Of a stretch of DNA of 64,000 nucleotides, positions 597 through 2,097 are shown one piece after another. The notes below the pieces were generated by a model that saw nothing but the letters and a program-made list of their open reading frames with translations, was not told the DNA's origin and searched no databases. This DNA is from an uncultured Thermomicrobiaceae bacterium. GTDB lineage: Bacteria; Chloroflexota; Chloroflexia; Thermomicrobiales; Thermomicrobiaceae. The translations under genes and the position numbers were made by a program. The number at the start of each line of letters is the position of its first letter. Within the stretch, counting starts at the first letter, position 1. The stretch lies in contig CALKCJ010000026.1 of the NCBI GenBank assembly GCA_938082375.1, positions 62,001 to 126,000 of the forward strand, written 5' to 3'.

Positions 597-1436
597 TCAG
601 CTTCGCTGCTGCCGCGCCAAGGTTACCAGGTTGCGCGCCAGGATAGCATTTGTAACTGGGCCGGTTCCTCCCGGCACGGGAGTGATCGCGCTGGCGACCT
701 CGGCCACGGCCGGGTCAACGTCGCCGACGAGGCGTTCCCCGACGACGTTTATCCCGAAGTCAACGACCACCGCACCGGGCCGAACCATGTGCGGCTCGAT
801 CAGGCCCGGTGAGCCCGCAGCCACGAACAGCAGCTCAGCGGTTCGTGTGACTTCCGTGAGATCGGTGGTCTTACGGTGGCAAACCGTCACCGTGGCGTCT
901 GCGGAGAGGAGGAGCGAGACGAGCGGGCGACCGACAACTGGGCTGCGGCCGACCACGACGGCCTGGCGGCCGCTGACGGCGATGCCGTAGTAGCGGAGGA
1001 GCTCTATTCCGCCAAGGGGAGTACTCGGCGCGATGGCTGGGAGGGAGAGGAAGAGCCGACCGGCATTGATGGGGGTAATCCCGTCGACGTCCTTTTCCGG
1101 TGCGATCGTCAGCGCCGGGAGCCAGCGGGGGAGTGATCTCGGCAGCGGCTGCAACGCCAAGATACCTGCGACCTCCGGCTGCTGGTTGAGTCGCGTGACC
1201 ATTTCCCGGAAGCCGGCTTCGTCGATGGACTCGTCCAGCGGAGCCTCTCGCACTTCGACGCCGAGCGGGGCGAGCGTCTTATGGATGGCGCGGGCGTACG
1301 CCTTTGCTCCGGGGTCATCGGGAAGCAGGAGCGCCAGGCTCAACGCCTGTTGCGTGCTGATTTGTCGTATTTCTTCACGTACAGCACGCAATATCTCCTT
1401 AGCCAGCGGTCGACCGTCAAGCATGCGGGCGGGCAT
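597..1436 (-). CDS. folD: FolD-like methylenetetrahydrofolate dehydrogenase, cyclohydrolase residues missing
   Basis: A 279-residue FolD homologue of normal family length. The NADP-binding part is well conserved (VVGRSPVVGRPL, TVCHRKT, then PVPGGTGPVT near the C-terminus), as is KDVDG at residues 115-119. FolD normally oxidises 5,10-methylene-THF and hydrolyses methenyl-THF in the cytoplasm. Aligned by eye with E. coli FolD, the active-site Tyr is kept (Y47), but the catalytic Lys four residues later is Ile51 and the Gln of the VQLPLP motif is Leu95 (ALQPLP). Loss of these residues is expected to remove cyclohydrolase activity and may leave a dehydrogenase only. The ATG at 1436 lies inside the 3' end of the upstream cyclodeaminase-like gene (20-base overlap), so translation is probably coupled; 1424 is an alternative start. 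Confidence 0.85.
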   Translation of the reverse strand: MPARMLDGRPLAKEILRAVREEIRQISTQQALSLALLLPDDPGAKAYARAIHKTLAPLGVEVREAPLDESIDEAGFREMVTRLNQQPEVAGILALQPLPRSLPRWLPALTIAPEKDVDGITPINAGRLFLSLPAIAPSTPLGGIELLRYYGIAVSGRQAVVVGRSPVVGRPLVSLLLSADATVTVCHRKTTDLTEVTRTAELLFVAAGSPGLIEPHMVRPGAVVVDFGINVVGERLVGDVDPAVAEVASAITPVPGGTGPVTNAILARNLVTLARQQRS

Positions 1437-2097
1437 TGGCTGCTCCGACGTCTGGCGGGGTCGGGGTCGACGGAAGCGCGCTGGCAAGCTGGCGAGCGAG
1501 GCTGCTAGCCTCCTCAGCGATCGCTCGGGCGCGAGCGCGTGTGGAGGCCAGCGCTGCGCCTGCGAGAAGGGGCATGTTGGCCTCGGCCATGCAGAGGGCG
1601 GCCTCGATCGCCGCACGGGCCACGTACCCGGCAGCGGCGAGGTCGCTGGCGACGAACCGTGAGCAGAGCGGCGCGATAGCCAGCGCGCGGCGGAGCAACT
1701 CGAGCCCAGCCTCGGCCGTGGTGAGCGGGCCGTCGGCGGCTGCCGCGGCCGCCTCGTGCAGGTTCTCGGCGGGTAGGCGGGCGCCGCCCTGCCGTGAGGC
1801 ACGGAGGGTCGCCAGCAGGCGAGCCAGTATCGCTCGCTCGAGATCGGCCTGCCGCAGCAACTGTTCGGCCAGTTGACCGAAGCACCTTTCAGCCTCAGCG
1901 AAGGCCTGCGCGCGCACCTGATCCTGACGCGCACGCTTGCGTTCAATCGTTGCGACCATCTGGGTTACGGCAGCTGTACTGGCCAGAGTGACCGCGGCGA
2001 GAAGGCCTCCGCCTGAAGGATCGCGTGGGTCGGCGAGCCGCTTCACAAGCGTCTGGAGGGGCCACTGTGCGACCGATTCGGTCGTATCCGGTGTCAT
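1417..2097 (-). CDS. formiminotransferase-cyclodeaminase C-domain / methenyl-THF cyclohydrolase (FchA) family protein
   Basis: A 226-residue, almost entirely helical protein of the FTCD_C family. It has the glycine signature near the N-terminus (DPSGGG, GGG at residues 29-31, followed by small residues) and the later SDLAAAGYVA segment followed by an alanine-rich helix, as in cyclodeaminases and in stand-alone FchA-type methenyl-THF cyclohydrolases. Both enzyme types act on the methenyl-THF node of folate one-carbon metabolism in the cytosol. The ATG at 2097 follows GAGGTGCAAGGGC, a good ribosome binding site, and is preferred over longer in-frame starts. The gene overlaps the folD-like gene downstream. 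Because that FolD lacks cyclohydrolase residues, the cyclohydrolase role is the more likely one, but sequence alone does not separate it from cyclodeaminase. Confidence 0.75.
   Translation of the reverse strand: MTPDTTESVAQWPLQTLVKRLADPRDPSGGGLLAAVTLASTAAVTQMVATIERKRARQDQVRAQAFAEAERCFGQLAEQLLRQADLERAILARLLATLRASRQGGARLPAENLHEAAAAAADGPLTTAEAGLELLRRALAIAPLCSRFVASDLAAAGYVARAAIEAALCMAEANMPLLAGAALASTRARARAIAEEASSLARQLASALPSTPTPPDVGAANARPHA

Follow-up and report, generated by a model that had tools for sequence, protein, structure and literature searches.

A division of labour between a dehydrogenase-only FolD and a separate cyclohydrolase is already known, from Clostridium perfringens and from the gene cluster of Acetobacterium woodii. 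In C. perfringens, FolD reportedly acts as a dehydrogenase only, while FchA is said to provide the cyclohydrolase activity and Fhs is also present. The same three-protein combination is proposed here for the genome of the window, a stretch of 64,000 nucleotides from an uncultured Thermomicrobiaceae bacterium (Chloroflexota). The Clostridium FolDs that were compared, a set that does not include C. perfringens, lack Lys56 (human numbering, as for all active-site residues below unless indicated), as does the FolD of the window. However, in these Clostridium proteins Lys56 is replaced by Gln, Gln100 is kept and the FTCD_C gene is not located near folD, whereas in the window Ile replaces Lys56 and Leu replaces Gln100, the two genes overlap and the FTCD_C protein is strongly diverged. 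In A. woodii, the genes are arranged in the cluster fhs1-fchA-folD-rnfC2-metV-metF (PMC6925170). The window resembles this cluster in gene order, with fchA directly upstream of folD, but the A. woodii pair is part of a Wood-Ljungdahl operon, while that of the window is a two-gene pair.

More distant likenesses are seen with Methylorubrum extorquens and yeast. FchA of M. extorquens (PDB 7vg4) is a stand-alone cyclohydrolase that has the same fold as the FTCD_C protein of the window at about 20% identity, but several residues conserved in FchA are absent from the latter. The partner of M. extorquens FchA is MtdA, not FolD. For yeast MTD1 (PDB 1edz), a eukaryotic protein distant from the window FolD (E 7e-10), we know of no FTCD_C partner. 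MTD1 is a FolD-family enzyme described as dehydrogenase only (Barlowe and Appling 1990, as cited in PMC6443876). The split itself is known from clostridia and acetogens; no description of its extent across Chloroflexota, or of the order of the residue losses, was found in a literature search that covered few subscription papers.

The gene pair and the FolD active site

The first-pass annotation had noted a 20-base overlap between folD and an FTCD_C-family gene, with which both the coordinates (Table 1) and the PF04961 match of the upstream protein (E 9e-18, 65.1 bits, curated cut-off 24.5) agree. Translational coupling of the two genes through this overlap is likely. The Pfam domains THF_DHG_CYH and THF_DHG_CYH_C of FolD both score above their curated cut-offs, while the protein falls below the cut-off of an NCBIfam FolD equivalog (275.7 bits, the best among the matches listed, vs 411). 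The genome is 99.97% complete and encodes a single FolD, a single FTCD_C protein and a single formate-THF ligase (Fhs), so that no second, complete FolD is available to it. Both genes of the pair are under purifying selection: relative to the sister species, folD has a dN/dS of 0.18 and the FTCD_C gene one of 0.29, and values of 0.08-0.33 were obtained in seven of the eight pairs compared, with 0.15-0.37 for the nearly identical genomes G008 and G014.

Table 1. Features of the folD/FTCD_C locus in the window
Feature	Coordinates	Strand	Length	Description
folD	597..1436	minus	279 aa	Predicted monofunctional 5,10-methylene-THF dehydrogenase; both Pfam domains
FTCD_C (FchA/cyclodeaminase) family gene	1417..2097	minus	226 aa	PF04961; predicted methenyl-THF cyclohydrolase
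Reading-frame overlap, FTCD_C 3' end / folD	1417..1436	minus	20 bp	

In FolD, Lys56 and Gln100 are described as partners in catalysis, and Tyr52 and Asp125 as residues that bind and orient the substrate (PMC3368264, PMC6443876). The best PDB match of the window FolD is the Thermus thermophilus enzyme (6v6y), and the region of the active site aligns to it without a gap, such that Tyr47 corresponds to T. thermophilus Tyr46, Ile51 to Lys50 and Leu95 to Gln94, and the Asp of the KDVDG motif is present. Ile51 and Leu95 therefore occupy the positions of human Lys56 and Gln100 in the cyclohydrolase site, while the substrate-binding Tyr52 and Asp125 are present, bearing out the residue assignments that had been made by eye. 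Lys53, considered as a displaced catalytic Lys, was ruled out, since it is located two residues past the catalytic position and pairs, in the same ungapped alignment, with a second conserved Lys (T. thermophilus Lys52, E. coli Lys56), so that no Lys stands at the catalytic position itself. The Gln of the window motif ALQPLP is shifted by one place to the position of human Leu101, where most sister families have Met. A single-sequence structure prediction of the window FolD reached a pLDDT of 44 and was set aside.

Distribution and history of the cyclohydrolase site

A set of 61 genomes was compared (that of the window and 60 relatives), with FTCD_C found in 51 and FolD in 50 of them. Ile or Leu occupies the Lys position in 50 of the 51 FolDs of the order, indicating that the substitutions of Lys and Gln are not due to chance. 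The position of Gln100 is more varied: families f1, f2 and f3 have Leu or Phe there, and two of the three f4 and f5 members still have Gln. The annotation had suggested a search of related genomes, and the same gene pair with the same substitutions is indeed present in 17 relatives of the window's family and in most of the order. The exception among the 51 FolDs is a second, unlinked copy in genome G030 (L033, G030:C111), which has the canonical Lys and Gln, is located on a 3.7-kb contig and may stem from contamination or horizontal transfer.

The phylum was covered by an even sample of 221 genomes, 120 further stretches were read, and 220 FolD copies were scored over the order and the phylum sample (mostly even sampling). 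Lys is absent from 145 of these copies; a stand-alone FTCD_C protein is encoded in the same genome for 140 of the 145, adjacent to folD and on the same strand in 113 cases, and the five FolDs lacking an FTCD_C partner all come from metagenome-assembled genomes of family f3 that are 72-93% complete. By contrast, none of the 74 copies that retain Lys is adjacent to an FTCD_C gene: 45 are in genomes lacking FTCD_C, 18 are accompanied only by full-length FTCD (>500 aa) and 11 by a short, unlinked FTCD_C. Thus FTCD_C can occur where Lys is retained, while FolDs that have lost Lys are almost never seen in the absence of FTCD_C, an asymmetry that matches the prediction of a hand-over. The pair is also present in named records (Chloroflexus, Herpetosiphon, Thermogemmatispora and Anaerolineae), and the FolDs of Chloroflexus and Herpetosiphon share 95-100% of their residues with members of f6 and f7. 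Since these two families belong to the window's class, the window can be placed in Chloroflexia, and its order is probably Thermomicrobiales. The split folate pair appears to span a large part of the phylum. No fusion of folD and the FTCD_C gene was found in relatives among the loci read. Short, divergent and unlinked FTCD_C genes were observed in genomes of families f22 and f25 (e.g. G073, G131 and G253), the FolDs of which keep both Lys and Gln.

In a FolD tree from which the columns of Lys and Gln had been left out, the proteins lacking Lys form one split of 149 rows with a support of 0.95, which includes no Lys-bearing member and within which Lys was never regained. Gln100 changed 20 times inside vs 2 times outside this split, and Ser49 23 times vs once, whereas Tyr52 changed 2 times vs 0 and Pro102 and Asp125 remained fixed on both sides (0 vs 0). 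Among the 47 positions conserved in Lys-retaining FolD, Lys56 is the most relaxed, with 0% kept. Together with the roles assigned to the residues (PMC3368264, PMC6443876), the drift of Gln100 and Ser49 and the constancy of Pro102 and Asp125 fit a loss of the cyclohydrolase activity while the dehydrogenase activity was kept. Lys was lost in about one event in the phylum, and in two to five changes in all when other phyla are added. Such a small number of independent losses does not allow a strong p-value from independent replicates for the co-occurrence, and a phylogenetically independent test of Lys loss against FTCD_C, with only two to five losses, was accordingly without significance. Judging from the sequences, the putative hand-over is an ancient, clade-wide state rather than a local event.

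The FTCD_C partner and the competing explanations

The predicted structure of the window FTCD_C protein (pLDDT 90.5) has the all-helical FchA fold, with a VIA Z of 25.7 to the Thermotoga maritima protein 1o5h and of 24.5 to M. extorquens FchA (7vg4), whereas unrelated helical bundles reach a Z of only about 12. Its sequence is far less typical, scoring 26.3 bits against the FchA equivalog NF045657 (NCBIfam, cut-off 275). The FTCD_C proteins of families f1 and f2 are divergent: the PTP preceding the GGG, the NLTxGK and LPKxT motifs, Arg97 and Asn158 have been lost, while GGG, Pro112, Ser139-Asp140 and Asn162 are kept, and this in all f1 members. The window protein itself carries a Glu at the otherwise near-invariant Asp73 (7vg4 column), where the sister species G003 (L076) has Asp. 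Among FTCD_C proteins linked to FolD, the conserved set consists of PTPGGG, Asp73, Pro112, Ser139-Asp140, Asn158 and Asn162, so that the window protein shares this set in part. Canonical FTCD_C proteins are retained in sister families that have the same FolD. No catalytic residues of FchA or of the cyclodeaminase domain were found published in the open literature. The window protein is probably an FchA-type cyclohydrolase, and the activity of this partner in the window's family is the main doubt of the whole reading.

A dehydrogenase-only FolD that works with a stand-alone FchA-type cyclohydrolase is the best explanation, to which we assign a probability of about 0.78. FolD would oxidise 5,10-methylene-THF to 5,10-methenyl-THF with NAD(P)+, having lost the ability to hydrolyse the latter, and the FTCD_C protein, translated just before FolD, would hydrolyse methenyl-THF to 10-formyl-THF, which would serve the synthesis of purines and fMet-tRNA. 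In this scheme, both enzymatic activities are inferred from the sequences, as are the cofactor and a possible contact of FolD with its partner. The original proposal, that FolD is monofunctional and that the cyclohydrolase moved to its neighbour, is supported by the phylum-wide co-occurrence with FTCD_C and by the relaxed site, but for the window's own genome the hand-over is something we infer, since the site of the neighbour has itself diverged. It is a tentative and rather unlikely idea that FolD and FTCD_C form an obligate two-protein enzyme in the window's family, channelling methenyl-THF with a rebuilt active site, instead of acting as two independent enzymes; the FTCD_C proteins of this family have lost the canonical motifs of the substrate loop, and a linked FTCD_C is retained in every family member in which both genes were found.

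A monofunctional FolD whose FTCD_C neighbour is a non-catalytic structural or regulatory partner would also be compatible with the presence of Fhs in the genome and with the many FchA-conserved residues that f1 and f2 have lost; methenyl-THF would then be hydrolysed non-enzymatically, or 10-formyl-THF would be made by Fhs from formate. However, the FchA fold is kept, the gene is under purifying selection, the set of residues named above persists throughout f1 and sister families combine the same FolD with a canonical FTCD_C, so that we regard a non-catalytic partner as improbable. Less probable still is a FolD that remains bifunctional by means of Gln96, Lys53 or other groups, with FTCD_C performing, for example, formimino-THF cyclodeamination. 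A computational study of MTHFD2 left the role of the Lys as catalytic base unsettled (PMC9173628), and the window's family does have a Gln one position later, but most sister families have no Gln at the Leu101 position and Lys53 pairs with another conserved Lys. Moreover, Gln100 and Ser49 were lost repeatedly only after the loss of Lys, and FTCD_C adjoins folD only where Lys is absent. A frame error, pseudogenes or misassembly, for which the divergence of the sequences alone could speak, are refuted by the relatives sharing the pair and its substitutions, as well as by the dN/dS values, leaving an artefact or a decaying pair with virtually no weight compared with the dehydrogenase-only FolD and its FchA-type partner.

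Other phyla and implications

Outside Chloroflexota, 43 genomes were compared that had been picked for carrying FTCD_C and are thus a biased sample; their FolDs often lack Lys or Gln. Apart from the K56Q of the Clostridium FolDs, the positions of Lys and Gln are occupied by Ile and Phe in [Clostridium] ultunense, by Ala and Phe or Ile and Phe in Christensenella and Synergistota, and by Ile and Leu in Dictyoglomus and Eisenbacteria. If the proposed reading is true, much of Chloroflexota would be without the textbook two-in-one FolD, and the same would hold for parts of Synergistota, Dictyoglomota, Clostridia and candidate phyla. Family models label the Lys-less FolDs as “bifunctional,” and their usual annotation is that of an ordinary enzyme; metabolic models of one-carbon flux and predictions of the essentiality of folD and FTCD_C genes would therefore be affected. 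The clade would also represent a natural experiment, in which about 150 sequences seem to have lost one activity of a shared active site and kept the other, and which points to Lys56, Gln100 and Ser49 as residues needed for the cyclohydrolase only, and to Tyr52, Pro102 and Asp125 as those needed for the dehydrogenase.

Where folD adjoins fchA in Clostridia, as in Desulfosporosinus and Desulfotomaculum among others (L347, L349, L351, L353, L356 and L357), Lys is kept and Gln100 is replaced by Glu, which can be presumed to represent a different route to the same loss of cyclohydrolase activity. Tandem folD genes were observed at three loci, L363 (G322), L150 (G110) and L144 (G166); at L363, from a member of the Syntrophomonadaceae, one copy carries K56Q, while the other is canonical.
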